64,000 bases of DNA. Origin: Methylobacillus gramineus. Its GTDB lineage: Bacteria > Pseudomonadota > Gammaproteobacteria > Burkholderiales > Methylophilaceae. Positions 11,451-63,730 of this stretch are shown here, one piece after another (the stretch's first letter is position 1; the number at the start of each line of letters is the position of its first letter). The translations under genes and the position numbers were made by a program. Location: contig NZ_JAJAVE010000003.1 in NCBI RefSeq assembly GCF_020532675.1, positions 124,001 to 188,000 of the forward strand, written 5' to 3'. The notes under the pieces were generated by a model. The model searched no databases. It saw only the letters and a list, made by a program, of their open reading frames with translations, and was not told where the DNA came from.

Positions 11451-11534
11451 GGTTGGTCCTTATGAGTGTAGTGATGTCTTATTTTTAATCCTGACTTGTG
11501 CTGACGCGCACAAATCCAGTGCTGCTTACAACAT

Positions 11535-12146
11535 TTATTGCCCAGGGCTGTTTACCTTGATCAAATCTGCCTTGAAGCCATTTTGCGCCAGATCAGACTT
11601 GGCCGTGTTGATTTGGTTCAAGTCAGCAAATGGTCCCACGCGTACCCGGTGCCATACCCCCTTTTCGGGGATGGTGGCGGTTTGCACGATGGCTTCCAGG
11701 CCCAGCAATGCCAGCTTGGCCTTCATGTTATCGGCTTCCTGCTCGGTTTGGAAAGCCCCTACTTGCAGGAAATAGCTTTCTTGAACCTGTGCGGGTGAAG
11801 CTGCGGATTCCTTTTGTTTGATTTCCTGCTCAGTCACCTGGCTTTCGCTGCCTGGCAAGATGGTATAGAAATCAAAACGTGGTTTCTCGCTCGCTCCTTG
11901 CTGGTTGTCGGCATTCTGCTTGGTGTTGGTTTCAGGTGCAGCCTTGGGAAGTTCAAACTGGCCTTCTTCGGTCTTGCTCTTGCCTGACTTATTGACAAAG
12001 GGGCTATCACTACCCATGACCAGGACAGCGACCACCACTGAAATCCCGACGCCCAACAACAGGCCGACCAACAGGCCGGTAAAGAAGGGGCTACCCTTGC
12101 TGCTGGTGCTCGCTTTACGCTGTGCTGGCTTGTAGTCTCGACTCAC
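11535..12146 (-). CDS. SPOR-domain membrane protein (FtsN-like)
   Basis: A 203-residue bitopic inner-membrane protein. A basic cytoplasmic N-terminus precedes one membrane helix at about 22-46 (FFTGLLVGLLLGVGISVVVA). A low-complexity periplasmic linker rich in Lys, Glu, Gln and Pro follows. The C-terminal SPOR domain (SYFLQVGAFQTEQEADNMKA and HRVRVGPFADLNQINTAKSD) occupies about 122-200. SPOR domains bind denuded peptidoglycan at the division septum. The architecture and the place after argS match the small FtsN-like proteins of betaproteobacteria, but identity as FtsN itself is not proven. Confidence 0.9.
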   Translation of the reverse strand: MSRDYKPAQRKASTSSKGSPFFTGLLVGLLLGVGISVVVAVLVMGSDSPFVNKSGKSKTEEGQFELPKAAPETNTKQNADNQQGASEKPRFDFYTILPGSESQVTEQEIKQKESAASPAQVQESYFLQVGAFQTEQEADNMKAKLALLGLEAIVQTATIPEKGVWHRVRVGPFADLNQINTAKSDLAQNGFKADLIKVNSPGQ

Positions 12147-44608: not shown

Positions 44609-46570
44609 TCAAGAAGGACTAATAAACACCTCAAGCGGCACGAAAGGGAAAATCGCTTCATCAAACAATACGGACTGCGGATTTGAGTTGATCACGACCG
44701 AAGGCCAGGATTGAGCCTGGCTGTCCCTGGCAATGTCTCGGAATGCGCTGACATGCAGCTCCTGCCCTGGATTAGGGATATTGTATTTATCGCCTGCCTG
44801 CTGATAATCATCAAAGAAATAATTGGGATTGTGCTTGGGGGTTTCGGCGATGACCAGCTTCACCCCACCTGCAGATTGGGCTTCGGGGATGATTTCGACA
44901 TAGCGTAAATCCACCCCCAGAATGGCGATTTCCGAATAGCCCAGATGTGCACCGTAACGCACTGCAAAGGCGCCTGTTGTGACGATGCCATTGACTGGAT
45001 CCAAGCCCTTGATGGGGATGGAAGACTGGAGTTTGAGGCCACGCAAAGAGGCTTTCTTGGGTAGTCCACGGAATGATTCAAGGAAGAAAACATTCTGTCT
45101 GTCCCGCAGGTCGGGATAGTAATTCAATATCTTGCTGAGTAAAAAAGCGCTCCTGACTTTGCCGGACACAATCATCTGGTGGATGGCGCTGGCGTGTGTC
45201 TCGATCAACTGGTCGTCCAGGCAGACATAGTGATCCGGATACCAGTTGATACGGTCCCAATGGCGATAGGCCGCATTCATGCCTATCGTATCAACGCCAG
45301 ATAATGAGTGAAGATCAACGTGCTTGAGCGAAGGTCCATTTCCCAGTACCACCAGTTTGTTGGTGCGACGCATCCCTGAACCAGTTTCCTGCGTATGTCT
45401 TGTCGCCTCTGATGCTTCCAGTGCTTCAATACGGCGGATCAGGCTGAGACCCCCTGAGCGCAGGAATGACTCGTGGGGTAATGTCCTGCCCCAAGTCATG
45501 ACAGCGGAATAGTCTCCCCATTGATCCAGCGTTTCCCTTGCATGGTGGTGGGCCATCACGGGGATATGGGCGACAACGGGAGCTTGCCGCTCGGGTGTCA
45601 GGGTCTGCTGCCAGAATAAGGGCGAGAGGAAATCACGGAAATGTATTTGCTGATAGGCCTGCTCAGAAAACAATGCCCCTGCGAGCGGGATCAACGGCTG
45701 GTAAAACAGGTAAGCGGTTTTATCAAACCATTCTGCTTCTTGCAGGATTTCAGCGTTGATGCCGGCAAGTATCAGGTCTTCATTGGAGGAAAGGATTTGA
45801 TAGCTGCCCTGCTGGCACAGGGTGGCGGCCTGCCCGGTAATGAGCGTCAATGCTGCACGCTCCTCTTGTGCAAAGCTGGCAGTTGGGGAAGTGGTCTTGT
45901 AAAGCAGACGCCTTCCCTGGCTCAGTGTATGGAGTTGCTCAGCGAATTCATCACAATGGAGCAGCTTGCTATCAGGCTTCTGCAAGGCGCTGTCGTAAGG
46001 TGTCTGGGCGATATAGATCAGGCTGTCATCAAGATTGTCGAAATGGAAGCTACCCTCTTCTTCCAGTTGTGCCTTATGCATGCGTACATTGGCAGCCAAT
46101 GCGGCTGCCTCAAGGCGGATTTCTTCATGCTTGACGGCATGGATGTTGATCCTCTGGAATATGTCCGCACTTGAGGATCGTATGGCGATGTAAAGATCGC
46201 GCGCAAAGCGTAGTGGGGATGTCCTGACATCAATGAAATCGTAAGCGCGTGCTTTGCATGCTTGTGCCAGCCATGGTGGCATATCGATTGATAGCACCAG
46301 GGTGTCCGCAGGGATGTGCGCAAACAGATAATCGACGGCGGCCTGGGGGATATTCCATGGTGTGCGTTGCGATCCTGCGAGCGTAATAAACTGTTCAAGA
46401 TCAAACCCTGGCAGCAAGCCCGATAGCTTCTTCCTGATGGTGGGTGGATAGGCAATATCAATATGACAACCCTGCCGGATGGGTTCGCGAATCAGGTCCA
46501 GCATGCCGTGCTGTCGTGACAGCCTGTTGTTGAACAAATCTGGCAGGCAGATGATGTTGGTGATGCTCAT
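44609..46570 (-). CDS. Probable glycan-biosynthesis protein with GNGPSL (DUF115/sialyltransferase-like) domain
   Basis: A 653-residue protein I do not recognise as a whole. About residues 405-610 carry LVVLGNGPSLKHVDLHSL, then IGMNAAYRHWDRINWYPDHY and IVTTGAFAVRYGAHLGYSEI. This GNGPS-plus-Rossmann pattern is shared by DUF115/MAF-type flagellin-modification proteins and GT42-like sialyltransferases. The N-terminal 400 residues have no motif I can assign but include a His-rich stretch (AHIPVMAHHHARETLDQWGD) suggestive of a GT-B transferase. Its place among glycan genes supports a sugar-transfer role. Confidence 0.72.
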   Translation of the reverse strand: MSITNIICLPDLFNNRLSRQHGMLDLIREPIRQGCHIDIAYPPTIRKKLSGLLPGFDLEQFITLAGSQRTPWNIPQAAVDYLFAHIPADTLVLSIDMPPWLAQACKARAYDFIDVRTSPLRFARDLYIAIRSSSADIFQRINIHAVKHEEIRLEAAALAANVRMHKAQLEEEGSFHFDNLDDSLIYIAQTPYDSALQKPDSKLLHCDEFAEQLHTLSQGRRLLYKTTSPTASFAQEERAALTLITGQAATLCQQGSYQILSSNEDLILAGINAEILQEAEWFDKTAYLFYQPLIPLAGALFSEQAYQQIHFRDFLSPLFWQQTLTPERQAPVVAHIPVMAHHHARETLDQWGDYSAVMTWGRTLPHESFLRSGGLSLIRRIEALEASEATRHTQETGSGMRRTNKLVVLGNGPSLKHVDLHSLSGVDTIGMNAAYRHWDRINWYPDHYVCLDDQLIETHASAIHQMIVSGKVRSAFLLSKILNYYPDLRDRQNVFFLESFRGLPKKASLRGLKLQSSIPIKGLDPVNGIVTTGAFAVRYGAHLGYSEIAILGVDLRYVEIIPEAQSAGGVKLVIAETPKHNPNYFFDDYQQAGDKYNIPNPGQELHVSAFRDIARDSQAQSWPSVVINSNPQSVLFDEAIFPFVPLEVFISPS

Positions 46571-46608: not shown

Positions 46609-47634
46609 CTATTCACTGCGCTTGAGCAATGCAGCCCGATTGCGCGCCTCGATGACTTGCAGCCCATGCTCCAGTAGCCAGGGCATGGCGGTGGTGCCCT
46701 TTGCTACCCATTGGTCATTTTCCAGCCAGGTATCATCAAAGCAGACCAAGCCATCGGGGGCTAATTTTTCATCCACAGCATGAGCGCACTCCAGGTGCAT
46801 TTGATGACAAGCAGCATCGCTGATGGGAGCGCCCAGCATCTTGATATAACGGCTTTGCCTGAGTTCGGAATGCATACCGTGGTCAAAGTCATAGGCATCA
46901 AGGAACAGGAAATCGAATTCTGCTGGATAATCGCGAAGATAATCCTCACCCTTCATCGTGATGGCTTCAAATGGCATCCCCAGGCGGGTAAACATATCAT
47001 TGGCCATGCGCGTGTTATGCGGGTCCATGTCTACCGTGATGAAATGCAGGTCATGTGATCGGCAAAATTCGGCAAGTATTTTTGTGGAGCCCTGGCCCGG
47101 AACATTTTCCCGTACCGTGCCAATTTCAATCAATACCCGCTTTCTTCCATCGGATCGTTTGCCGATCTTGTGCAGGTTGTCATGCAGGTGATTCAGCAAT
47201 ACATCATGACCATGCTGGATGTTGCGCTTTCTGTGTGCATTTTGCTCTACATATCGCTCAAGCAAGGAGCGTTTGTTGCCCTCTTCCAGGTGTAAGCCCG
47301 GCAGCTTTTCAATATAGTGGCGACACACTAGGTCCAGGGCTTCATCAGTCTCTCCCAATGTGACCAGGCGCTGGATCAGCAAAGGGTAATGATCCGTGTT
47401 GACGGCTGCGAGGTGCTCTCTTGCCATCTGCAGGAAACCGATGGCTGCCATGCGGTTATTGATGTGCTTGAACTCATCGGAGAGCGCGAGATAAAACAGG
47501 AATCTCTTTTTTTCATCTAGTGCATCACTGAACAGTATGGTATCCACCGCCTCAAGCACATCTGTGCTTGTCATGCAGTGTTGCGCCAGATCTATACATT
47601 GTGTGGGCAATGTGGGTGTGTGGTTATTCAGCAT
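46609..47634 (-). CDS. Class I SAM methyltransferase with N-terminal helical region
   Basis: A 341-residue protein. The first 150 residues are helical and TPR-like (HINNRMAAIGFLQMAREHLA). The rest is a Rossmann-type methyltransferase: VLIEIGTVRENVPGQGSTKI (SAM loop), DLHFITVDMDPHN (acidic residue after strand 2), EFDFLFLDAYDFDHG and DGLVCFDDTWLEND. The target is unknown; sugar or glycoprotein methylation is inferred from context. The gap to its neighbours is short (24-38 bases), in line with an operon. Confidence 0.78.
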   Translation of the reverse strand: MLNNHTPTLPTQCIDLAQHCMTSTDVLEAVDTILFSDALDEKKRFLFYLALSDEFKHINNRMAAIGFLQMAREHLAAVNTDHYPLLIQRLVTLGETDEALDLVCRHYIEKLPGLHLEEGNKRSLLERYVEQNAHRKRNIQHGHDVLLNHLHDNLHKIGKRSDGRKRVLIEIGTVRENVPGQGSTKILAEFCRSHDLHFITVDMDPHNTRMANDMFTRLGMPFEAITMKGEDYLRDYPAEFDFLFLDAYDFDHGMHSELRQSRYIKMLGAPISDAACHQMHLECAHAVDEKLAPDGLVCFDDTWLENDQWVAKGTTAMPWLLEHGLQVIEARNRAALLKRSE

Positions 47635-50911: not shown

Positions 50912-52579
50912 TTATTGAGGGTAAAAGTATTTTTCTTTTTCGGCACGCGACATCCGCCTGTGCTCATGGTTGCCCTTGTAGGCACCCCAGTACTGGTTGA
51001 GGCGGTAGCAAAACACATCCAGGATGCTAATTTTGATACCGCCACGCCATGCTTGCCGCACATCCTTGAAGAAGCTGCTCAGGATATAGCGCACGGTATC
51101 CAACAGGCCTACATGCAGCTGCGGCATGATTCTTTGCAAGGCGATCGCTTCTCGCTCAAACCGCCGCCTTACCTGTGGCCAGTTTTCATCATGATGGTGG
51201 TATACCGCCGCTTCCGCAATATATCCTACCCTGCCGTGATCTCGGGTCAGCCTTTGCGCCAGGTCCATATCTTCCAGCCCGGTCAGGTCTTCGTCAAAAC
51301 GATATTGTTGCCAGGCCTTGCGGGATAACGCGGCATTGGCGTTGTTGCAAAAGAAACCGGCCTGCGGTAATGCTGAGATTGCGGGGAAATATTTGGCAAA
51401 AATACGTTTTTCACTGAAGTGGCTCTGTTCCCCTCCCAGTTGTTTTCCGTAGGCATAGTCTGCACGTTGTTCGAGGATGGGTTGGCACAGGGTTTGCAGC
51501 CAATGTGCGTCCGTGGGTACGCAGTGTCCGCTGATGAATACCAGGATATCGCCCATGGCGGCCTCACATCCGCGGTTCAGCGAGCGACCAAAGGAAAACT
51601 CCTCCCGCGTGATATGTTGGATGCGGCAGCCGTACCGCTCTGCAATCTGCAAGGTATCATCTGTAGAGCCCGAATCGACCAGGATCACTTCATGGCTCCA
51701 GTCATTGAGGGTCTGGCTGGCAATGCTTTGCAACACTGATTCCAGGTGGCGGGCTTCGTTCAGGGTGCGGATGATGATGCTGGCGCGTACCTTGCCCAGG
51801 TTGATGCTGGTCGGGCGCAGCAGCAGGTCAAAGCCGGGGTTCAGCTTCTGGTGCAGCAGGCGGATTTCATCCGGGTCCACCGCATTGATGGAAAACATGT
51901 CCCAGTGCACTGCCACCACCTGACGTACGCCGATTTCCTGACCAAACTGGAAGGCCTCGCGTATGGACATATTGCCGATGATGCCACGCCTGCCGCGAAA
52001 GAAATTATGTTCATTTACTGGCAGGAAGGCCGTGTGGAGCGGAGCAAGCCGGGCCAGGGCATCAATGATCTCCTGCTTGACCATGGTATCACCGGCGACA
52101 TAGAGCCTTTGCCCGGCATACTCCAGCACAAAACCTACACAGGCCAGGTTGCCTGCTTTGTCCCGCACCAGCTCAGGGTGCGCTGCCGGGATGGCATGCA
52201 GGCGCAGTCCTGTTGCGCCCAACGCCTGCCATGTTTCCTCTGCAAGCAATAATCGGTCATCAGCAATACCCCATTCTGCCAGTAGCTGAATGACGGGAGC
52301 CGGCCCGACAAAGCGTGCCTGCGGCGATGCGGCGGCCAGCTTGGGCAGGGTGTGCGGGTCGCAATGATCGATGTGCGCATGCGTGATCAGCACCCAGTCA
52401 GCATCCCTGACTTCTTCAGGCAAGATGGGGATGGGTAATAAACGATCCAGGTCAGGCGCATCCAGTTCCTGGACCGAGTTAGACAGGTAAGGGTCAACAT
52501 AGACCGTGCAGCCGGCAAAGCCTAAGCGGCAGCCAGATTGGCCCAGCATTTGAACGGGGACTCGGAGCGAGGCGGTCAT
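50912..52579 (-). CDS. Fusion of metallo-beta-lactamase-fold hydrolase and GT2 glycosyltransferase
   Basis: A 555-residue two-domain protein. Residues 1-255 are a UlaG-like metallo-beta-lactamase-fold domain: VYVDPYLSNSV, the metal motif HAHIDHCDP (His67, His69, Asp71, His72), YVAGDTM and VVAVHWDMFS. Residues 265-500 are a GT2 domain: ASIIIRTLNEARHLESVLQS, VDSGSTDDT, FSFGRSLNRG and GLEDMDLAQRLTRDHG. The ATG at 52579 overlaps the upstream stop (ATGA). The reading is open through both domains with no frameshift visible, so the fusion is real at the sequence level. Confidence 0.88.
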   Translation of the reverse strand: MTASLRVPVQMLGQSGCRLGFAGCTVYVDPYLSNSVQELDAPDLDRLLPIPILPEEVRDADWVLITHAHIDHCDPHTLPKLAAASPQARFVGPAPVIQLLAEWGIADDRLLLAEETWQALGATGLRLHAIPAAHPELVRDKAGNLACVGFVLEYAGQRLYVAGDTMVKQEIIDALARLAPLHTAFLPVNEHNFFRGRRGIIGNMSIREAFQFGQEIGVRQVVAVHWDMFSINAVDPDEIRLLHQKLNPGFDLLLRPTSINLGKVRASIIIRTLNEARHLESVLQSIASQTLNDWSHEVILVDSGSTDDTLQIAERYGCRIQHITREEFSFGRSLNRGCEAAMGDILVFISGHCVPTDAHWLQTLCQPILEQRADYAYGKQLGGEQSHFSEKRIFAKYFPAISALPQAGFFCNNANAALSRKAWQQYRFDEDLTGLEDMDLAQRLTRDHGRVGYIAEAAVYHHHDENWPQVRRRFEREAIALQRIMPQLHVGLLDTVRYILSSFFKDVRQAWRGGIKISILDVFCYRLNQYWGAYKGNHEHRRMSRAEKEKYFYPQ

Positions 52580-54801
52580 CGGCGCAATATCTCCCCTATC
52601 ATGTGGCACATGTCATCCAGCACCTGTTGAGCGCTTTTGCTGGCGAGGTCTCGATGGATGATGGCTTGTCGCTGATAGCCAAATAACGGGTAACCCAGGG
52701 CCTCGAACCGCTCGTGCTTGATGAGCAGGTCGGCAATATGACCGCCTTCCGGGCCAAAACCTGACAGCTCCCACATGATAAACAGATCCTGATCGATGGC
52801 ATCGGGTATGCGGGCCAGCTCTGTTGCAGCGCTTTCCAGGTCACCATGCTGGATATGAATGGTGAGGATGGAAAAAGGTGCATGTGCATGTTGCTGGCCC
52901 CAAGGGCTCGCACCAAGATTGAGGAATATGGTGGGCATCACTTTGGTACTGCCTGGGCCGCCGAGCCAGGCGGTTTTTTTGTTCAAGGCCTGCAGATTGT
53001 GCAGACTGCTTGAATATGCGGCATGTTGTGCGTACTTGCGCAGCAATCCGCTGGCGCATGCCTTGATATTATTCTTCAGGTGTTGCTGGCCGCGCTGGTC
53101 TGAATAGTCACGCAGCTTTTCGTCCCTGTGCAAGGTGCGCACCGACAGACATGGATTCCGGACGCTATAGCCCTCTGTGCGCAGCAGTGCTGCAATCGCG
53201 GTATCGCAGCCCAGGGTGCCTATCAGTACCGATGCGAGCTCCGCTGGTACTGAGACGGGGGTGTCGAACACGTAGCAATCATACGAGAGATAATTTTTCT
53301 CGAAATGGCAGCGGCCATTGGGCGTCCATGGTGACCAGGGCGTGTGCGGTTGCAGGCTCTGCAGATATTCGCCTGTCGACGTTTGGTTCCAGCGTGTCAA
53401 TGCATAGATGGGAGAGCCATCGGCCGCGCGGCCTGTGGTCAGGTCATGCACCGCCTGTGTCGGTAGCAGCATGTCCGCATTGACGATGGCAGCTGTCACC
53501 TTGCCTAGCGAATTTGCGTAATTAAACAGGGTTTGATAGTGCGGGCGTGCAAAAATCGGAGAGAAAATTAATTTGCCGCTGGCCAGCAGTGATCGGAGTA
53601 TCTGGACTTCTTCAGCATTCAGGCTATTTTCCAGGGCAGCAACCGGTCCTTCAAGCAACACATGCAGATGAGAGATGAGCGGAATACGGCAATTTTCCAG
53701 CAGGATCTCTGCGCAGTTTCTTACTTCATCTGCGGCGCCCTCGGTGCGGAAGGTCGTGATCAGCACAAAAGGGCGAAGTGCTGGAGGATTGACGATCATG
53801 GGGCTATGGGCAGGAATGCCATCCACCTGCTGGGTGTCGCTGTCATGTGGATAGGCAATGCCGAAACATTCACATAGTGCAAGCAACACAGAAGGAGCAC
53901 TATCTTCCAGCCCAAGCTGGATAGCCTGATGCATGATGTTTTGCTTGAGGCCTGGTGCCAATTGCCCAGGCTGTGTTTTCAGGTTGATACGGTAGTGACG
54001 GGCAACCTGTAGATGGATTTCATCCTTGATGGATTTCACCAGCCAGGTGTTCAGAAATGCCACCAGGCCAGCACTCTCCATCATGGAACGGCATACCTGG
54101 GTGTGATCACTGATCAGACTCCAGATGAACAGGGAAAATTCGCGTAAACGTCTGGCTACCCTGAGCGGAGGCACTCTGTAATCTGGTGTCAGGAGGGCGA
54201 GTTGCGATGGCGCATATATCCAGCCAAGTACATCCCGTATGGCGCTATCGTGCTGCTGGTGCTCGGTTGCCAGAGTGCATGCCTCGATCACTCTATGTTG
54301 GGCACCGCAGTGTTCGACGTAGTGAGATACGGTTCCGGTACTGAGTATCTTGGCAAACAATAGCCAACCTTGATACCAGCCTGGTACCTCGGACTCATGC
54401 AAAGACAGGCCACGAAACAAAGCGGTTTCTCCCATTACCCCACTGAGATGAATCGGGTTGACGGCAGCGTCAAATGCCATTTCCTTGGGACGCGAGATTG
54501 TGGCGCCAAGATCGTTGCCTTTGTCGTCAATCAGTTTGACCGGGCTATGCACCAGCTTTGCCTCGGGATTCTGCTGCAAATAGTCCAGGCGGGATCGTAA
54601 TGCGTCGGCCTCAAAAGCGCCATCTGACTCCAGAAAGGCGATATATCGGCCCCTTGCCTGCTGGATATCGTCGCCAATCAGTATTTCAAGATGCTCTATA
54701 CCTTGCGCATGTACTGATGCGATGGCCTGCGGGAGAAAGCTGGACGCTGGGGAGCCCAGTATGATCACTGAGATGAGGGGATGGGGGGATGGGCTCGTCA
54801 T
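52576..54801 (-). CDS. Large glycosyltransferase-like protein
   Basis: A 741-residue protein. The N-terminus is a GT2 start (PLISVIILGSPASSFLPQAIASVHAQG, IAFLESDGAFEADALRSRLD) with a shortened nucleotide loop (LIGDDIQQARGRY). The middle (about 360-560) has a second nucleotide-sugar-transferase-like unit (FVLITTFRTEGAADEVRNCA, AAIVNADMLLPTQAVHDL), resembling the GT family that reports DxD-like NADML. The C-terminal 150 residues are unassigned. It lies directly after the remnant module and is coupled to the fusion gene. Confidence 0.75.
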   Translation of the reverse strand: MTSPSPHPLISVIILGSPASSFLPQAIASVHAQGIEHLEILIGDDIQQARGRYIAFLESDGAFEADALRSRLDYLQQNPEAKLVHSPVKLIDDKGNDLGATISRPKEMAFDAAVNPIHLSGVMGETALFRGLSLHESEVPGWYQGWLLFAKILSTGTVSHYVEHCGAQHRVIEACTLATEHQQHDSAIRDVLGWIYAPSQLALLTPDYRVPPLRVARRLREFSLFIWSLISDHTQVCRSMMESAGLVAFLNTWLVKSIKDEIHLQVARHYRINLKTQPGQLAPGLKQNIMHQAIQLGLEDSAPSVLLALCECFGIAYPHDSDTQQVDGIPAHSPMIVNPPALRPFVLITTFRTEGAADEVRNCAEILLENCRIPLISHLHVLLEGPVAALENSLNAEEVQILRSLLASGKLIFSPIFARPHYQTLFNYANSLGKVTAAIVNADMLLPTQAVHDLTTGRAADGSPIYALTRWNQTSTGEYLQSLQPHTPWSPWTPNGRCHFEKNYLSYDCYVFDTPVSVPAELASVLIGTLGCDTAIAALLRTEGYSVRNPCLSVRTLHRDEKLRDYSDQRGQQHLKNNIKACASGLLRKYAQHAAYSSSLHNLQALNKKTAWLGGPGSTKVMPTIFLNLGASPWGQQHAHAPFSILTIHIQHGDLESAATELARIPDAIDQDLFIMWELSGFGPEGGHIADLLIKHERFEALGYPLFGYQRQAIIHRDLASKSAQQVLDDMCHMIGEILRR

Positions 54802-54813
54802 GTAAGTGATGCC

Positions 54814-54994
54814 TTAATGGTTGTAGAAGTATATCGGCTCATCTAACGGATGTCGTATACGGTTTTGTCTGCTACATCGGCACTGGCGCTGATGGAGGAG
54901 GTCATGGCAAATCCTCTTTCGGGCTGGCCTGCTTCCACGCGTGATATACCAGGTCCAGGTATTCTCCCCCGCCGATGATCCATCTAGATCTCAT
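54814..54994 (-). pseudogene. Remnant of a PglD/NeuD-like acyltransferase gene
   Basis: The first 29 codons (MRSRWIIGGGEYLDLVYHAW, then KQASPKEDLP) match the start of the intact transferase at 57351-57974. A stop follows, and then the last about 24 codons of the same gene reappear (SADVADKTVYDIR, then DEPIYFYNH and a stop) in other frames. About 150 internal codons, the whole left-handed beta-helix, are missing, and one base is lost near 54842. It overlaps the preceding remnant by 11 bases, exactly as the intact pair does. Confidence 0.85.
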
Positions 54995-55154
54995 GATCGG
55001 TCTCCATCAGGGTGGCATAACAACGCTCAACATCTGTTCTGCCGGGCAAAACTGGGCTGTAACACTCTATCGCTTCGGCAGGAAAGTCTTCATCGTTGCG
55101 CGAAATAATGAGCATATAGGTCAGCGGGTCCAGTCGTTGGATATTCATTGTCAT
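54984..55154 (-). pseudogene. Remnant of a Rieske-oxygenase gene (56-codon chimeric reading)
   Basis: This reading begins one base after the methyltransferase stop. Its residues 30-43 (ECYSPVLPGRTDVE) match the barrel segment ECYTPVSPGRTDVE of the oxygenase at 56365-57348. Residues 44-56 (RCYATLMETDHEI) match the C-terminus of both oxygenases. The join skips about 80 residues. The parental gene has TTGAAC at both edges of the skipped segment, consistent with a short-repeat deletion. The first 29 residues match nothing I can see in the window. It has a start and stop and could in principle be translated. Confidence 0.8.
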
Positions 55155-56364: not shown

Positions 56365-57348
56365 TCAAAACTCGCTTTCTGTATCCATCAGGGTGGCATA
56401 ACAACGTTCAATCAAACGGTTTTGTGCCTCATAAGCACCTTGATGAGGCATGGGGGCCCGGGAATGTAGTACGTTTTGTACGGCCTCTAGCATTGCAATG
56501 TCTTCCCCGACGATCTGTTTGCTGCCATGCATATTGGCGAGCAATGCCTGGGATGAAAAATCAAAATCTTGGGTCTTGCGGGCCATGATCCAGAAGAGTT
56601 CAACATCTGTTCTGCCGGGTGAAACTGGGGTGTAACACTCCAAGGTAAAAGAGTGTCCAGCATTGCCACTGGCAATGTGCAAGTTGGGATAGGCTAGCCA
56701 GTCATAATAGCGGTCTTCACCTCCCCAAGGTTGTACCATGGCATGCCATGGTACTTTGCGGCGATGGGGAATGAGGACTGGCGTGGCTCCTCCCCAGTTA
56801 AAGCGGCGGATTGCGGCGCGCAGGCTTTGTGCGGAGGTGTCGTCAAGCGGTTGTGCAGCCTCCTCTGCCAATTCTTCCGGCACGGGAATGGTCATGTCCA
56901 GATAGTTGGCAAAATTACCGCCGTGCAGGAAGCGCACATGATTCATGTCGCGCAGGTTTTCAAAGATGAGCTTCCAGTTAAATTTGGCATGCCAAACAGT
57001 ATGTAATACTTCAGAGCCCCAAGCTGTGGAACAGCTTTCCAGGGATGAGAAAAAGCTGGGAGAAAAATGATCATGAATTGGCATGGGGTCGGGAGCAAGA
57101 TTGACGAACAAGAGCTGGCCAACGGCCTGGATAGCCTGGGCTTCTTGTCCATGATGAGCCTGAAATACCCCATAGTGATTACTGATTGTGACCGGGAAGC
57201 CAGCAAGCATGCGGACCATGGTGTTGCCATGGTCGGGTATCAGTGCCTTTAGGCCCGCAAACAGCCATGTTTTGCGAAAGATTTTTGCTTGCTCGCGTTC
57301 AAAAATCTCTTGCGAGAGGTAATACTCGGGCCGCATGCGGGATTGCAT
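56365..57348 (-). CDS. Rieske-type oxygenase paralogue lacking the Rieske domain
   Basis: A 327-residue protein that aligns along its length with the intact oxygenase at 57964-59106 (starts MQSRMRPEYYLSQEIFEREQ and MQSRMHPKYYLSQEIFDREQ). About 54 residues carrying all four [2Fe-2S] ligands are absent between residues 64 and 71. The mononuclear iron site remains: Asp134, His137 and His142 (ENLRDMNHVRFLH), and the later EDIAMLEAVQN segment supplies the third carboxylate. The reading frame is otherwise intact. It would need electrons from another protein, perhaps its paralogue. NdmC of caffeine degradation is a known natural example of such a protein. Confidence 0.88.
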   Translation of the reverse strand: MQSRMRPEYYLSQEIFEREQAKIFRKTWLFAGLKALIPDHGNTMVRMLAGFPVTISNHYGVFQAHHGQEAQAIQAVGQLLFVNLAPDPMPIHDHFSPSFFSSLESCSTAWGSEVLHTVWHAKFNWKLIFENLRDMNHVRFLHGGNFANYLDMTIPVPEELAEEAAQPLDDTSAQSLRAAIRRFNWGGATPVLIPHRRKVPWHAMVQPWGGEDRYYDWLAYPNLHIASGNAGHSFTLECYTPVSPGRTDVELFWIMARKTQDFDFSSQALLANMHGSKQIVGEDIAMLEAVQNVLHSRAPMPHQGAYEAQNRLIERCYATLMDTESEF

Positions 57349-57350
57349 GA

Positions 57351-57974
57351 TTAGCTGCCGTAAACAAGAATCGGTTCATCATAGCGAGTGTCATAAACGG
57401 TTTTATCTGCTATGTCAGCGCTATATAGCTGGGGCCAGCCCAGTTCTGCACCCTTGCCCACCTTGATACCGCTACGCACGATAGCACCCGTGCGGATAAT
57501 GGCATGGGTACCGATTTCTACTCTGGAGCCAATCTGTACGCCTGGCTCTATCCATACGGATGCGCGCAGGTGACTATTGGCACCGATCTGCGCACCAGCA
57601 TGGACAACGCTGTTGTACTCTATTTTGCAGTGATGGCCGATGATGGCTTGGGGGCCAATGAAAACGTTCTTGCCTATCTTAGCCTCTGAGGCAACATCTG
57701 CATTCGCACTTACAAAGGAGGACAGCGTAAAGCCTCGCTCCAATGCAACGCGAAATAGCTCCATGCGCTTGAAATTGCCAAAGCGGTCATCGACGGCAAT
57801 GAAGACATCACCAAGCTCTGGATGCAAGGTGTCGAAGATGGATAAATCAAACTCATAATCTGCCCCTTGGGGTACTGTGATCTTCTGCACATCCTCGGTG
57901 GCAGATGCCTGTGTCCAGGCATGATAGGCTAAGTCCAGATAATCTCCTGTGCCTACGACCCATCTAGATTTCAT
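57351..57974 (-). CDS. PglD/NeuD-like acyltransferase (left-handed beta-helix)
   Basis: A 207-residue protein. The N-terminal 90 residues are Rossmann-like (WVVGTGDYLDLAYHAWTQAS, GDVFIAVDDRFGNFKRMELF). About 95-185 are hexapeptide repeats (IGKNVFIGPQAIIGHHCKIE, IGANSHLRASVWIEPGVQIG). Relatives N- or O-acetylate bacterial sugars using acyl-CoA. The ATG overlaps the oxygenase stop upstream by 11 bases, and the same overlap recurs in the remnant copy. The stop is 2 bases before the Rieske-less oxygenase start. The usual catalytic His is probably in IIGHHCKIEYN. Confidence 0.87.
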   Translation of the reverse strand: MKSRWVVGTGDYLDLAYHAWTQASATEDVQKITVPQGADYEFDLSIFDTLHPELGDVFIAVDDRFGNFKRMELFRVALERGFTLSSFVSANADVASEAKIGKNVFIGPQAIIGHHCKIEYNSVVHAGAQIGANSHLRASVWIEPGVQIGSRVEIGTHAIIRTGAIVRSGIKVGKGAELGWPQLYSADIADKTVYDTRYDEPILVYGS

Positions 57975-59106
57975 GCTCGGTCTCCATTAGTTCTGTGTAC
58001 CAGCGTTCGATCTGGCGATTGGTACTTTCGTACGCGCCTTGAGTGGGTATTGGTGCGTCAATATGCAGCGCGGATTGCACTTGCTCCAGCATATCAATAT
58101 CCTCGGTCAGGATGGTTTTGCTGTAGTGCATATTGGATAGCAGAACTTGATACGATGCTGCATAAGGCTGTTTCTTTTTCGCTGTGATGAAGTAAATCTC
58201 AATATCGGTTTGGCCCGGTGCTATCGGGATATGGTGTTCAATGGTAAACGAGTAACCACCGTTGCCGCAGGCAATATGCAGATTAGGGTAGGCGAGCCAG
58301 TTGAAATAGGCATCCTCTGTTCCCCAGCGTTCTACCATGTTCAGCCAGGGTACTGGTCGTACTGCGTCGATTTTACCTTCAGGGCCACCGTAGCTAAATG
58401 GACGCATGGCCTTGCGCAAGCCTGGGATGGAAATGTCTTCCAATGGTGTTAGCGCAAGATCTGCTTGGATAGGAGCTTCGAATGGGAAGTCAGCGATTGC
58501 CGCCAGGCTTTTGGCATGCAGGAACTTGACATGGTTGAAGTCGCGCAGGTTTTCATACACCAGCTTCCAGTTGAATTTACCATGCCAGGTAGTCACCATC
58601 ACCTCGGTGTCAAAGGATTGCGCAGCGCTTTCCATCAGTGCGACAAATTCTGGCTTGAACTGCTCTTCGAATGCCATTGGCTCGGTGCTCAGATTTATGA
58701 ACAACATGCTGCCGACTTGTTTCAAGGCAAACTCACGTAGTTTCAGCGATTGTTTTTCGTCAGCACTGAAGCGATAAATCGCCTCGCAATCAGGGATATT
58801 CTTGACGGCGCCCGTGGCGTCATAACTCCACGCATGATAAGGACATACCAAGGCGCGGCGTCCACAAAAACCCTGTTGCAAAGGTGCGCTGCGGTGCAAA
58901 CAGATATTCTCGAATGCTTTAATCTCCCCTTTGAAATTTTGGATGACGACGGGAATGCCCGCGATCTTGCGCGTGATGAATGCGTTATTTTCCGCGACCA
59001 GCGAAGTCAGGCCAGCAAACAACCACACCTTGCGAAAAATCTTGATCTGCTCGCGGTCAAAGATTTCTTGCGAGAGGTAATATTTGGGGTGCATGCGGGA
59101 TTGCAT
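57964..59106 (-). CDS. Rieske non-haem iron oxygenase, alpha-subunit type
   Basis: A 380-residue ring-hydroxylating or demethylating-type oxygenase. The Rieske cluster ligands are Cys69, His71, Cys88 and His91 (CLHR ... CPYHAW, 16 residues between the pairs). The mononuclear iron site is Asp189, His192 and His197 (DFNHVKFLH), with the later acidic segment LTEDIDMLEQV. No reductase or ferredoxin gene is visible in the window, so electrons must come from elsewhere. In a glycan island its substrate is probably a lipid- or nucleotide-linked sugar. It is followed by, and overlaps, the beta-helix transferase. Confidence 0.93.
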   Translation of the reverse strand: MQSRMHPKYYLSQEIFDREQIKIFRKVWLFAGLTSLVAENNAFITRKIAGIPVVIQNFKGEIKAFENICLHRSAPLQQGFCGRRALVCPYHAWSYDATGAVKNIPDCEAIYRFSADEKQSLKLREFALKQVGSMLFINLSTEPMAFEEQFKPEFVALMESAAQSFDTEVMVTTWHGKFNWKLVYENLRDFNHVKFLHAKSLAAIADFPFEAPIQADLALTPLEDISIPGLRKAMRPFSYGGPEGKIDAVRPVPWLNMVERWGTEDAYFNWLAYPNLHIACGNGGYSFTIEHHIPIAPGQTDIEIYFITAKKKQPYAASYQVLLSNMHYSKTILTEDIDMLEQVQSALHIDAPIPTQGAYESTNRQIERWYTELMETEHEI

Positions 59107-59132: not shown

Positions 59133-59777
59133 TTAAAAAATCACTTTGGCCGGGTTGCCGAAGACGGTGGCGCCGGGCGGCACATCCTTGATGACTACTG
59201 CCCCAGCACCTACGGTGGCGCCCTTGCCTATCTTGATACCTGGGGTAATCGTGGCATGAGGGTATACAATGGCATGGTCGCCAATCTGTGCGCCGCCACC
59301 GATGAAGACCATGGCACCGATTTGTGCGTAATTTCCGATGCGCACGTCATGGCTGATGATGGTGGCGCTATGGATATTGGCAAAATCTCCGATGTGAACA
59401 TCCGGACTGATCTGTACGCGCGCGGCCCAGAAGCACCCTGTGCCAAGATGGACGCGTACGCTGATGTAACCGTCGGTGTTGTAAGGGGTGCGGATATGGA
59501 TGAATTGTGCGCCCTTGTCGAGCAGAGGCTGTGCATATTGTTCGCGTCCGAGAGGCAATCCGATGGCACAAACAAACACTTCATCGTCTTGTGGCATGTG
59601 TGTCAGGGGGGTTCCCACGATATGCGCGCCACAGTCTATGCCATCAAGCATGTGTGGGCGTGTATCCAGAAAACCTGCAATCTCCCATGCCTTGCCGCAT
59701 GCAGGGTCATCGCGCATTTGCACCAGTACTTCGCGTCCCCAGCCACCGGCACCGATGATATAGGCTTTCTTCATCAA
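59133..59777 (-). CDS. NeuD/PglD-family sugar acyltransferase
   Basis: A 214-residue protein. A Rossmann N-domain (KAYIIGAGGWGREVLVQMRD, IAGFLDTRPHMLDGID, DEVFVCAIGLPLGREQYAQP) precedes hexapeptide repeats (IGDFANIHSATIISHDVRIG, IGKGATVGAGAVVIKDVPPG) and the capping FGNPAKVIF. This is the full NeuD/PglD architecture. The ATG overlaps the SDR gene upstream as ATGA. It could transfer an acetyl or a 3-hydroxyacyl group to an amino sugar; the acyl donor is not known. Confidence 0.9.
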   Translation of the reverse strand: MMKKAYIIGAGGWGREVLVQMRDDPACGKAWEIAGFLDTRPHMLDGIDCGAHIVGTPLTHMPQDDEVFVCAIGLPLGREQYAQPLLDKGAQFIHIRTPYNTDGYISVRVHLGTGCFWAARVQISPDVHIGDFANIHSATIISHDVRIGNYAQIGAMVFIGGGAQIGDHAIVYPHATITPGIKIGKGATVGAGAVVIKDVPPGATVFGNPAKVIF

Positions 59778-60514
59778 ATGACTGCTCCACCATCCATGAC
59801 CAGGCTGGTGCCTGTGACCCAGCGGCTGGCGTCAGATAACATATAAATTGCGCCATTAGCGACATCATCCAGGGTTCCCAACCCTAGTGGATGCCGGGCT
59901 TTTTGCTGTGTTAGCAATTCTTGATGTACATCCCACATTGGGGTAGCAATGACAGATGGTGAGATGCCATTGACACGAATCTTGCGTTTGGCTTGCTCAA
60001 GCGCCAAGCACTTGATGATGCCTATCAGGCCTGATTTCATGGCGGAGTATGGACCCAGCCCGCGCGTGCCGATATGTGCAGCGGTTGAGAGCATGAAGAG
60101 GATGGATCCTTGCTGGGCGATGGCATTTGCTTGGAGCAGGCTTTGTGTCAGCATGACAGGAGCTAGAAAATTGACTTGGTACATTTCTGTCATGAGCTGT
60201 TCGGATAGCTGCCTGATCGGGCAGTGTTTTTGTATGCCAGCACAATGGACTAGCCCATTAAGGTTGCTAGCGGATTTTGCCAGAAAGGTTCTTTCTTCTG
60301 CGATAGTCAGGTTTGCCGTGACCTGTACATGACCTTCTCCCTTTAGCTGGTCATAGGTGGTTTGTAGCCTGCTTTTGTCACGCCCAGTAATGATTAGGCG
60401 CGCGCCGCGCTGAGCAAAACGAATGGCAATATGTTGGCCCAGGCCAGAAGAGGCTCCGGTGACCAAGATAGTTTTTCCTTCCAGGGAAAAAGGGCTAATG
60501 ACAGGTATGTTCAC
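59774..60514 (-). CDS. Short-chain dehydrogenase/reductase (FabG-like)
   Basis: A 246-residue classical SDR with ILVTGASSGLGQHIAIRFAQ, IITGRDKSRL, VHCAGIQ, Ser in LSTAAHIG and the catalytic YSAMK. The C-terminus VTGTSLVMDGGAVI is FabG-like. It forms a tandem pair with the SDR upstream (ATGA overlap) and follows ACP and KAS III genes, so it may reduce a 3-oxoacyl-ACP. A role on a sugar ketone is equally possible. Confidence 0.88.
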   Translation of the reverse strand: MNIPVISPFSLEGKTILVTGASSGLGQHIAIRFAQRGARLIITGRDKSRLQTTYDQLKGEGHVQVTANLTIAEERTFLAKSASNLNGLVHCAGIQKHCPIRQLSEQLMTEMYQVNFLAPVMLTQSLLQANAIAQQGSILFMLSTAAHIGTRGLGPYSAMKSGLIGIIKCLALEQAKRKIRVNGISPSVIATPMWDVHQELLTQQKARHPLGLGTLDDVANGAIYMLSDASRWVTGTSLVMDGGAVI

Positions 60515-61275
60515 GCGTAGATATCCATAGGTGTGCTTAAGCCGCCATCTAGAATAAAATAATTGCGCGTGATCCAGCGGCTTGCATCCGCTAAATAGAA
60601 TACTGACGCATAAGCCACATCCTCTGGCTCACCCATTCCTAATGGCGTGAGGTCAAATAGAGCATCCATATTGCCTCCACCCTGCCCTAGGCCATCCAGC
60701 ATCGGCGTATGCACATAACCGGGTGCAATGCAGTTGACCCGCATGCCTTGCTTTGCGATTTCTAATGCGAGTGAGCGCATGGCACCTAGTAGCGCAGATT
60801 TGCTTGCCGCATATGCCGATGTTGCAAGTGCTCCACTATGTGATGACAGCGCTGAGATGAAGAGGATGGAGCCGTTCTGGGCGATACGTTTTTTCGCGAG
60901 CAAGCCTCTGGTCAGTAGCATTGGGGCAAATGTGTTGCTGTCGAAGATGTCGGTTAGATGCTGTTTGTTGATCAGGCGAAAAGGCACCAGCTTGGAAATG
61001 CCCGCTGCATGCACCACGCCATGGAGTGTGTCTGACACTGCTACAAGCTGATCTATACCTTCCTGCTGCGATAAATCTGCCGTGATGGCGATATGGCCCT
61101 CCCCGTGAAGGGCTGCCGCCGTTGCCTGCAGGCGTTCAGGGTTGCGCCCGCTAATGACAACTTGTGCGCCCATCTGCGAGCAAGTGATGGCAATCTGTCG
61201 GCCGATGCCGGAAGAAGCCCCCGTGACCAACACACGCTTTCCGCTGAGTGAAAAAGGATCCTGCACTACACTCAT
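60511..61275 (-). CDS. Short-chain dehydrogenase/reductase (FabG-like)
   Basis: A 254-residue classical SDR with VLVTGASSGIGRQIAITCSQ, VISGRNPERL, VHAAGIS, Ser in ISALSSHSG and the catalytic YAASK. The C-terminus ITRNYFILDGGLSTPMDIYA departs from FabG at the very end. The ATG at 61275 overlaps the KAS III stop; a longer upstream reading lies within KAS III. It is a paralogue of the next gene, which suggests two related reductions or a heteromer. Confidence 0.88.
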   Translation of the reverse strand: MSVVQDPFSLSGKRVLVTGASSGIGRQIAITCSQMGAQVVISGRNPERLQATAAALHGEGHIAITADLSQQEGIDQLVAVSDTLHGVVHAAGISKLVPFRLINKQHLTDIFDSNTFAPMLLTRGLLAKKRIAQNGSILFISALSSHSGALATSAYAASKSALLGAMRSLALEIAKQGMRVNCIAPGYVHTPMLDGLGQGGGNMDALFDLTPLGMGEPEDVAYASVFYLADASRWITRNYFILDGGLSTPMDIYA

Positions 61276-62324
61276 GAAATAATCAGTTGTGGGAAGATGG
61301 CATCTTCCACATCCACAATTGCACCGCCCCATGACAAGCCCACACCAAAGCCGCACAACAACAAACGTTGCTTGCCCGCAGCCAGCTGATCACGCAGGCG
61401 CACGGTAACCGTGACAGGTAGCGATGCGCCGCTGGTGTTACCGAATTCACGCAGGGTGGACGGGACTTTGTCTTCAGGCAGGCCCAGTTTCTTGCGTATG
61501 GTTTCGTTGATCATGCGGTTGGCCTGGTGAAAGATGAAGTAATCGATCTCATCCTTGGCGATATTGGCATATCCAAGCAGTTTTTCCACCATGGGCGGCA
61601 CGCGCTGGGTAGAGAAACTGATCACGGCTGGGCCATCCAGGATCAGGTCCAGGTCTGAGCGCCAGAAGCCATCGTCTCCCTTGCGGGCAATGCCATGCTC
61701 AAGCTGGAACGGGTTTCTATGGCCACCCACCGGCACGATGATGGCCTTGTAACCACTTCCATCACTGTTGAGGTCAAAGTACATGGGCGGTGCACCTTCT
61801 TTGTACTCCAGTGCTGTGGCCGTTCCAGCGTCTGAAAACAGAGGATCTTTTAATGGGTCCTTGTGCTTGTAGCTGGAACGGTCACCCAGCAGGATCAGCC
61901 CTTTCTTGATCGCGCCTGAAGCAATCATGCTGCCCATGATCTGCAAGGCGAATGGGTAGGACGAGCAGCCCAGGTTGACGTCAAACGCAATCGTCGAATG
62001 CGCCAGGCCCAGCCGGTCCTGCAGGATGATGGCCGTGGCCGGTACCAGGTAATCAGGGGATTGTGTCACCACAATCAAGGCATCCACTTCATCGCGTGAC
62101 CACTGCAGGTCGTTCAGCAGCTTGTCGGCAGCGTCGTATGCTAAATCAGAAAAGCATTGCCAGTCCGGGCATACCCGGCGCGTCTCTATGCCGATATTGC
62201 GCACCAGGCGCTCACGTTCAGAGCGCAGGTGTGGCGGCACATCATTAACGTTGTGGATCACATGCTTGGGCACGCAAGTCGCCATGCCGGCAAAACGTAC
62301 ATTTTTTAGCGTTGAAGTGGCCAT
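61272..62324 (-). CDS. 3-oxoacyl-ACP synthase III (FabH-like)
   Basis: A 350-residue thiolase-fold enzyme. Cys120 (DVNLGCSSYPFAL), His in FIFHQANRMI and Asn in FGNTSGASLP form the FabH triad. The ending LLLCGFGVGLSWGGAIVDV is characteristic. FabH-like proteins in flagellin-glycosylation islands such as that of Pseudomonas aeruginosa are thought to make short acyl chains for sugar N-acylation. The adjacent ACP and SDR genes support that here. A housekeeping fabH role is unlikely given the surroundings. Confidence 0.93.
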   Translation of the reverse strand: MATSTLKNVRFAGMATCVPKHVIHNVNDVPPHLRSERERLVRNIGIETRRVCPDWQCFSDLAYDAADKLLNDLQWSRDEVDALIVVTQSPDYLVPATAIILQDRLGLAHSTIAFDVNLGCSSYPFALQIMGSMIASGAIKKGLILLGDRSSYKHKDPLKDPLFSDAGTATALEYKEGAPPMYFDLNSDGSGYKAIIVPVGGHRNPFQLEHGIARKGDDGFWRSDLDLILDGPAVISFSTQRVPPMVEKLLGYANIAKDEIDYFIFHQANRMINETIRKKLGLPEDKVPSTLREFGNTSGASLPVTVTVRLRDQLAAGKQRLLLCGFGVGLSWGGAIVDVEDAIFPQLIIS

Positions 62325-62333
62325 ATCGACAAC

Positions 62334-62570
62334 TTAATTCAGTAACTGATAGAGATCGTTGACGGTGCTCACTTGCTTTAAGTGTTCGCCAGTAATGGTT
62401 TTGCCGTATTCCATATCACTGAGGACAATCACGCCCAGCGCTGCCAGGGAATCCCATTCCGGCAAGTCCTTGAGGATGGTGTCCGGGGTGATTTCCACCG
62501 CTTCCTGAAAGTCCACTGCGGTGATGAATTTCTCAATAAAGGTGTCGATGTTGTCCATGTTCATTCTCAT
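62334..62570 (-). CDS. Acyl carrier protein
   Basis: A 78-residue helical protein with the phosphopantetheine serine at residue 41 in EWDSLAAL. The helix II/III pattern IVLSDMEYGKTITGEHLKQV is as expected. The ATG overlaps the aminotransferase stop (ATGA), and the KAS III start follows 9 bases after its stop. It is a dedicated ACP for the island, distinct from the fatty acid synthesis ACP. Confidence 0.93.
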   Translation of the reverse strand: MRMNMDNIDTFIEKFITAVDFQEAVEITPDTILKDLPEWDSLAALGVIVLSDMEYGKTITGEHLKQVSTVNDLYQLLN

Positions 62571-63730
62571 TTCAATTGATTGATAGGCGCGATATTCGCG
62601 ATGGCGAGGCTCACGGCTTCTACTACATCGGTAATGTCTTGGTTCGAGATAAAGGTAGAAAACGGCAGCCCAATCAGTCCATTCGCTACCGCTTCAGCGA
62701 TGGGGGTGGGTTGTTTGATGATGGGCGCTACTTTGGCTGCATGCTGGTGCAACAGTGGTTGATACCAGCGGCGAGTGGCAATCTGTCTATGTTGGCAAAT
62801 CTTCTCCAGCCGGTCGCGCGCTTCTGCGGCCATGCGTACGCAGAAAATAGTCGGGGCCGCTAATCGTATGCCTATTTGCCATTGCAGGCTGTCACCACAG
62901 CTATGTTCCAGGGCCTCACGGTAGTCGTGATAAATACGATGTCTCAGGGTGGCCTGGGCATCCCATTGATCCAGACTGGCATGGGCCACGGCCGCATGAT
63001 ACTCGGAAAGTTTGGCATTGCTGCCTACAAAGGAAAGGTGGCCGACCGGGAAGCCGGCATTGGCATCTAGGTTGATGCCAAAATTGCTCAGCTGGCGCAC
63101 GGTATTATTGACGGTGGCGTTGCCGCTGACGACTATCCCTCCCTCGCCTGCTGCAAGCGATTTGGTGGCGTGCATGCTATAAACCACGGGGATATCTGGC
63201 GCCTCTACCCACTGGCTGCCAAATGCTCCTGCAGCATCAATCACGACATGGATGCCAGACTGGCGCTGGAATTCACTCCAGCCCAGTGTATCTTGCGGCT
63301 GGCCAAATGCCGCGACCGCAAGCACGGCCTTTGCACCACTTTGAGTAGCCGCTTCTGCAGCAATGGCCGGTGTAAGCAACCAGCTATCTGGGTCTATATC
63401 GGCAATCACGGGAATATAGCCCGCGCGGATGATGGTGGTAAGGGAGGCGACAAATGTCAGCGCCGGGACGATCACCTTGCTGCCTGGAGGCAGGTCCAGA
63501 CTGCTGAGCACCAGCTCCAGGCCAAGCGTGGCACTACTGGTGGTGGTGACATGCATGGGGTGGCTGCTGTGGACTTCAAACAGCGAGGACAGGCGCTGTT
63601 CCAGTGCGGTGTTGAGTGGGCCAAAATTTGAGTAGTGGCGGTTCTGGTCCAGCTGGGCGAGATAAGGCGCAAGTGAATCCCGGTCTGGCAAGAGCGGAGT
63701 CAGAAGCGGGATGGCAGTACGCACACTCAT
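62567..63730 (-). CDS. DegT/DnrJ/EryC1/StrS-family sugar aminotransferase
   Basis: A 387-residue PLP enzyme that aminates keto-sugars on nucleotide carriers. PLP contacts are TTTSSATLGLEL, Asp165 in VVIDAAGAFGS and Lys190 in SMHATKSLAAGEGG. The C-terminal part (IGLPFSTFISNQDITDVVEA) is family-like. It is followed by ACP and KAS III, the same order as the vioA-like aminotransferase, ACP and KAS III genes of flagellin-glycosylation islands in Pseudomonas. The sugar product is unknown. Confidence 0.93.
   Translation of the reverse strand: MSVRTAIPLLTPLLPDRDSLAPYLAQLDQNRHYSNFGPLNTALEQRLSSLFEVHSSHPMHVTTTSSATLGLELVLSSLDLPPGSKVIVPALTFVASLTTIIRAGYIPVIADIDPDSWLLTPAIAAEAATQSGAKAVLAVAAFGQPQDTLGWSEFQRQSGIHVVIDAAGAFGSQWVEAPDIPVVYSMHATKSLAAGEGGIVVSGNATVNNTVRQLSNFGINLDANAGFPVGHLSFVGSNAKLSEYHAAVAHASLDQWDAQATLRHRIYHDYREALEHSCGDSLQWQIGIRLAAPTIFCVRMAAEARDRLEKICQHRQIATRRWYQPLLHQHAAKVAPIIKQPTPIAEAVANGLIGLPFSTFISNQDITDVVEAVSLAIANIAPINQLK

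Follow-up and report, generated by a model that had tools for sequence, protein, structure and literature searches.

A Rieske-type oxygenase without its cluster-binding subdomain, encoded beside an intact paralogue in Methylobacillus gramineus

What becomes of a Rieske oxygenase once its iron-sulfur cluster is gone? The question is raised by two genes of Methylobacillus gramineus, located on a stretch of 64,000 nucleotides (contig NZ_JAJAVE010000003.1, positions 124,001 to 188,000) that is here called the window. One of them, FULL, encodes an intact Rieske oxygenase. The other, SHORT, encodes a protein from which the Rieske-cluster subdomain is gone, while the catalytic domain is kept (Table 1). 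The alpha subunits of known Rieske oxygenases, such as CntA (6y8j), are like SHORT in having the PF00848 domain, a bridging carboxylate, a His/His/Asp set and the base strands of the Rieske fold, but they also carry [2Fe-2S] ligands, which SHORT lacks; SHORT thus carries no cluster itself. For a cluster-less subunit to function as an oxygenase, its electrons must come from another protein. Is SHORT, then, a working protein or a decaying copy, and if it works, where would its electrons come from?

FULL is homologous to SHORT along its length, and the two align colinearly from the first residue to the last at about 52% identity, with SHORT shorter by a net 55 residues, a figure that counts two one-residue insertions elsewhere. 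An earlier reading, made from the letters of the DNA (the sequence-only reading), had described two oxygenases with a shared start and end, one of them missing about 54 residues together with the four cluster ligands, and the alignment bears this out: Cys69, His71, Cys88 and His91 of FULL, all four of its [2Fe-2S] ligands, fall in the stretch missing from SHORT. Some seven filler residues, the alignment of which is uncertain, lie at the junction in SHORT. MAFFT places SHORT His65 opposite FULL His71 and leaves the other three cluster ligands without a counterpart. A motif scan finds CxH...CxxH in FULL and not in SHORT, and Pfam matches SHORT only to Ring_hydroxyl_A (PF00848, cut-off 24.9 bits) and related catalytic-domain families, finding the Rieske family PF00355 in FULL and not in SHORT. 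An assembly error is unlikely, since two genes this divergent do not represent a collapsed copy; the genome is also near closed (4 contigs, 100% complete, 0.03% contamination).

Table 1. Features of the oxygenase pair and its surroundings, in positions of the window.
Feature	Position	Strand	Basis or remark
SHORT: oxygenase-like protein, 327 aa, without [2Fe-2S]-binding subdomain	56365..57348	(-)	PF00848 54.2 bits, no PF00355, no CxH...CxxH
FULL: intact Rieske oxygenase paralogue, 380 aa	57964..59106	(-)	PF00355 64.4 bits, PF00848 50.8 bits
Rieske cluster motif of FULL, Cys69 to His91	58834..58902	(-)
Deletion junction of SHORT, residues 64-72	57133..57159	(-)	FULL ~65-126 without sure counterpart
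Leftover Rieske base strands of SHORT, residues 27-87	57088..57270	(-)	model overlay 26-87; raised dN/dS in 41-64/71
ENLRDMNHVRFLH of SHORT: probable bridging Asp134, iron ligands His137 and His142	56923..56961	(-)	invariant columns
Asp283 of SHORT, probable third iron ligand	56500..56502	(-)	invariant column; ligand role as in the family
Hexapeptide (NeuD-like) acyltransferase between FULL and SHORT	57351..57974	(-)
FkbM methyltransferase, starting directly after the SHORT stop codon	55156..56364	(-)
Cassette remainder: hexapeptide acyltransferase, two SDRs, ACP-synthase-III-like protein, DegT aminotransferase	59133..63730	(-)
Remnant of a third oxygenase and acyltransferase pair, mostly deleted, frameshifted	54833..55067	(-)	DNA identity

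Judged by its aligned residues, SHORT retains a 2-His-1-carboxylate site and a bridging carboxylate. E130, N131, L132, R133, D134, N136, H137 and H142 are invariant in all 12 aligned sequences, the motif ENLRDMNHVRFLH is whole in SHORT, and the D283 column is likewise invariant (12 of 12, alignment A1). As in the family, Asp283 is probably the third iron ligand. The sequence-only reading had taken Asp134, His137 and His142 as the iron ligands; the two histidines stand, and Asp134 proves to align with the bridging carboxylate E205 of CntA, an equivalence set by alignment position. In CntA, the E205 carboxylate links the iron of one subunit with the Rieske cluster of its neighbour, over 12.2 A (PMC7948474). 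Since the carboxylate at the matching place has this role, Asp134 is likely an electron bridge and not a ligand.

Models of SHORT from AF2 are poor overall (mean pLDDT 43.3 and 43.5 in two runs), and only the strands were used, for which 10-residue blocks within residues 21-100 have pLDDT 58-84. In VIA-align, residues 26-87 overlay Rieske ferredoxins along nearly the whole chain, without the cluster subdomain: 2yvj_B with an rmsd of 1.3 A for 59 residues spread over chain positions 2-106 of 106 (Z 9.0, the best value, which is little above the 7-8 common for unmatched models), and 3gce with 1.3 A for 58 residues (Z 8.3), most other ferredoxin rows lying at 1.2-2.2 A. The strand fold of the model is partly inherited, because the alignment behind it held intact relatives. 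Foldseek gave no match at E <= 0.001, and the 50 rows shown are Rieske-oxygenase chains. Since it is residues 26-87 that overlay the ferredoxins, the cluster-binding subdomain appears, on the model, to have been removed and the Rieske base sheet to have closed up.

The open frame of SHORT speaks, up to a point, for a protein that is still in use. In simulations, one of 600 genes stayed free of stops at 0.58 neutral substitutions per codon, about the value under a 'dead' model (0.162 x 3.61), and 11% stayed open at 0.20, so that the frame alone does not exclude a recent death. Codon models with separate dN/dS for three parts of the protein on the SHORT branch (11 taxa; 11 or 6 across the codon tests) were fitted. 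In the catalytic domain of SHORT, dN/dS is 0.163 against a background of 0.101; neutrality is rejected (2dlnL 28.0), and equality with the background is not (2dlnL 1.9). In the leftover strands, residues 41-71, it is 0.44 against 0.036 (2dlnL 27.9), with full neutrality mildly disfavoured (4.9), and in residues 1-40 it is 0.065. Catalytic constraint is thus present on the SHORT branch, and relaxation has its centre in the leftover strands. For protein sequences, the ratio of the SHORT branch to the remaining tree is 0.095 for residues 1-40, 0.213 for the catalytic part and 3.93 for residues 41-64, where the branch (6.6) is saturated and the ratio gives direction only. The regional ratio is highest, at 8.4, in residues 37-72, and a catalytic window at 109-132 is also raised (6.2). 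The regional shift on the SHORT branch (26.8) has no significant equivalent when the same test is run with other branches as foreground: G003 3.3, Delftia 2.7, Oxfaec 1.9, FULL 1.4 and Variovorax 0.1.

Had SHORT died when it lost the cluster, all parts should have relaxed together. A model in which everything is dead since the deletion is worse than one in which only the strands are relaxed. The difference is 2dlnL 28.2, 19.4 and 25.5 in three setups, and 10.7 and 12.0 once the uncertain junction is omitted; the two models are non-nested and have equal numbers of parameters, and the comparison is uncalibrated by simulation. SHORT does not look like a long-dead copy on these tests, which back the earlier opinion that it is selected rather than decayed (catalytic dN/dS 0.16). 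That opinion was to be given up if the substitution pattern turned out to be relaxed; relaxation is found mainly around the deletion, and the catalytic domain is affected only slightly and not significantly. We infer that constraint continued after the deletion; if the faster evolution of the strands predates the deletion, this argument from timing falls.

Conservation at single positions gives a more mixed picture. Of the family-invariant residues, SHORT has all 14 in the stretch 1-40 and 65 of 82 in the catalytic part, the iron and bridge motif included. The other 17 of the 82 are changed, and relatives in the matching test miss between 0/82 and 9/91 (14 relatives, with the distant G020, G049, G038 and G019 copies set aside). 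The tree places SHORT, on a long branch of 0.70, in one group with FULL, G001, Delftia and G003 (support 80, and 70 for those four without SHORT); the G049, G038 and G019 copies, the broken fragment described below and identical rows were kept out of it. Gene conversion at the 5' end was considered and dropped: SHORT and FULL have 14 of 18 codons in common within the first 22, which ranks only third among the 45 pairs of ten genes, below FULL and X. juglandis (15/19) and Variovorax and X. juglandis (16/20).

The altered positions bear on the possibility that SHORT is a partner without chemistry, which binds iron or substrate, assembles with FULL and tunes the activity or stoichiometry of FULL. 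Both the 17 changed invariants and the kept base strands would be in keeping with such a role, but the full iron and bridging motif is retained and the catalytic dN/dS is not significantly above background. This explanation is considered unlikely.

The same positions, together with the long branch, could equally mark a gene that diverged at full length and is now dying, and the surroundings make this a natural suspicion. In the remnant beside the FkbM gene, two pieces match the oxygenase and acyltransferase pair of G003 at 88% and 94% DNA identity, and another piece is SHORT-like (93% over 41 bases), which makes the remnant a mosaic of G003-type and SHORT-type sequence. In G365 (L093 3468-4139 (-)), a broken second oxygenase occupies the position of SHORT, between the acyltransferase and FkbM genes; this gene is truncated, its frame is shifted, and it lacks the iron motif's first histidine. 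In G001 (L046 ~11500-11555), the acyltransferase stop codon is followed by ten bases, TC and then ATGCAATC, which match the spacer and the opening bases of SHORT exactly, after which the sequence is unrelated up to FkbM. These ten bases may be the relic of a lost SHORT-type gene; the match is short and carries little weight. The remnant, the G365 copy and the possible relic in G001 indicate a locus that makes and loses copies, and decay therefore needed serious testing. Two neighbouring oxygenases in G002 (L049 7265-8421 and 9262-10203) also have broken frames, through sequencing error or decay.

Late decay in a deletion-prone locus would account for these broken copies and for the absence of a visible orthologue. 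It does not sit well with a catalytic part that stays constrained when the relaxation has its centre in the leftover strands, nor with the first histidine of the iron motif, lost in the G365 copy and kept in SHORT. Its probability is put at a low level, the same as that of the partner without chemistry.

No orthologue of SHORT was found in any genome searched. In protein searches, 17 of 199 relatives gave a match, as did 14 of 187 genomes of the family (a set overlapping the first), all of 9 genomes of loci, 33 of 343 in a second family and 26 of 399 in the order (overlapping the other sets). In the last two, the best five or six candidates per genome were scored, and singly assessed matches were in all cases those above about 35 bits. 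A search for related loci by exact peptide patterns returned 10 loci, every one full length, and plasmids and viral contigs gave none. The Rieske motif is present in 21 of 21 aligned relatives and in 10 of 11 rows of a second gene set, which correspond to 9 distinct genes (L069 and L093_4578 being one gene); the eleventh row is the broken G365 fragment. In the two frame-broken oxygenases of G002 the motif is visible by eye. The sequence-only reading had named relatives that all carry the Rieske domain as one sign of a recent dead copy. That sign is there, in 21 relatives and 9 further genes, and the deletion is thus not seen elsewhere; the accompanying sign, a relaxed substitution pattern, is seen chiefly around the deletion.

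FULL would be the nearest donor of electrons that the genome offers. There are four Rieske matches in the genome: besides FULL, these are a further oxygenase, which has a catalytic domain itself, and two small Rieske proteins, one of them L003 (116 aa). With all four otherwise accounted for, a Rieske part split off into a gene of its own was not seen. A reductase with Fer2, FAD and NAD domains (L096, 352 aa) is encoded elsewhere in the genome and could feed FULL.

A different source of electrons is suggested by the caffeine-degrading NdmCDE system, which the sequence-only reading had cited as a precedent. NdmC is indeed, like SHORT, a non-heme iron oxygenase without a Rieske cluster, and it shows that such a protein can be fed in trans (PMC4408171). 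By analogy, a separate cellular Rieske protein other than FULL might serve SHORT, and L003 would be one candidate. The likeness is incomplete. The Rieske domain of NdmC is fused to the reductase NdmD (PMC4408171), whereas a Rieske-reductase fusion is not among the four Rieske matches of this genome, and both small Rieske proteins lie in unrelated neighbourhoods. The NdmCDE complex also requires the GST-like NdmE (PMC4408171); no GST-like NdmE domain was reported among the scanned proteins of the window and flanks. SHORT keeps the Rieske base strands and has FULL and its family as nearest relatives, NdmC being compared by its description. A split of the NdmC type is improbable here. Slightly less probable again is that SHORT has turned into a sensor or a different iron enzyme with no need of Rieske electrons: a kept iron site and a lost cluster would agree with this, but the kept Asp134 and Rieske base strands would not be expected.

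The setting of the pair is a cassette of the sugar-acylation type, with the order DegT aminotransferase, ACP-synthase-III-like protein, two SDRs, hexapeptide acyltransferase, FULL, acyltransferase and FkbM protein. FULL is two genes upstream of SHORT on the same strand, and the frames are tightly packed, with 2 bases between the acyltransferase and SHORT and 0 between SHORT and FkbM. The order through the second acyltransferase is conserved in G001, G003, G005 and two Oxalicibacterium loci. Loci of Xanthomonas, Delftia and Variovorax share the segment that starts with the synthase and ends with the second acyltransferase. SHORT is seen in the window only, between the acyltransferase and FkbM genes. 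Paired oxygenases are not unusual in such cassettes (G020, G049, G038 and G002), and G019 has two adjacent oxygenases on opposite strands in a different setting; all of these pairs retain the Rieske motif, those of G002 in broken frames.

The XCV2003-XCV2013 genes of Xanthomonas offer a guide to function. By a printed gene list (PMC3826837), they are like the cassette in comprising an aminotransferase, a 3-oxoacyl-ACP synthase, two short chain dehydrogenases, an acetyltransferase and a Rieske protein, XCV2007, the one Rieske protein in the gene list, and they lie among flagellar genes, beside FleQ, FliS and flagellin. The five Xanthomonas loci read here each have one intact oxygenase and no copy of SHORT. 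By analogy with this gene list, a role of the cassette in flagellin glycan synthesis is likely; no flagellar genes were found by eye among the open reading frames of the window and L095.

A GT41 protein adjoins the cassette. Further along the window (50912-52609 (-)), a metallo-beta-lactamase-type domain is fused to a family 2 glycosyltransferase, and this protein is conserved in G001 and G003. No Pfam match at 1e-5 was obtained for three further proteins, of 653, 341 and 741 aa (44609-46570, 46609-47634, 52576-54801 (-)); relatives of the 653-aa and 741-aa proteins occur in G001 and G003, and the 341-aa protein was not seen in the stretches that were read.

The explanation that agrees best with these observations is that SHORT is a cluster-less working subunit that assembles with FULL and receives electrons across the subunit interface. 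It is held tentatively, with somewhat less than even confidence. Electrons are known to pass between subunits in CntA (PMC7948474), and this is described as a general feature of the Rieske oxygenase family (PMC12445004), so that in principle a subunit might do without its cluster where its neighbour keeps one. A catalytic domain apparently still under selection, next to the intact FULL gene, suggests that FULL supplies the electrons, and the idea of a mixed oligomer, already raised in the sequence-only reading, fits the retention of the probable bridging Asp, the predicted iron ligands and the Rieske base strands.

On this proposal, the oxygenase gene would have been copied in tandem within a cassette for glycans of the flagellin type, and the copy would have lost its cluster-binding subdomain and kept the base strands of the Rieske fold, which may be useful for assembly, along with the mononuclear-iron site. 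SHORT and FULL would then assemble as a head-to-tail mixed trimer in which electrons pass from the Rieske cluster of the neighbouring FULL through Asp134 to the iron of SHORT, so that SHORT would have retained the receiving side of the subunit interface and lost the delivering side. Its substrate would probably be the same N-acylated amino sugar as that of FULL, or a related one. The detailed version, with the cluster subdomain excised, the base fold closed and SHORT active only with electrons from its paralogue in the same trimer, is advanced a little more cautiously than the general one. Several findings count against SHORT as a working subunit: the missing orthologue, the lost catalytic invariants, and the decay of a neighbouring copy and of the copy in G365.

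A search of the literature, which took in open papers and left most subscription papers outside, found no report of a cluster-less oxygenase beside an intact paralogue. The pair would be a natural case in which the rule of electron transfer between subunits is directly testable with two adjacent genes. If the mixed trimer is real, electron delivery and substrate choice would be placed on separate subunits of one enzyme, so that within a single oxygenase nature would have shared out the tasks of delivering electrons and of catalysis, and the pair would point to a way in which split oxygenases such as NdmC could arise.
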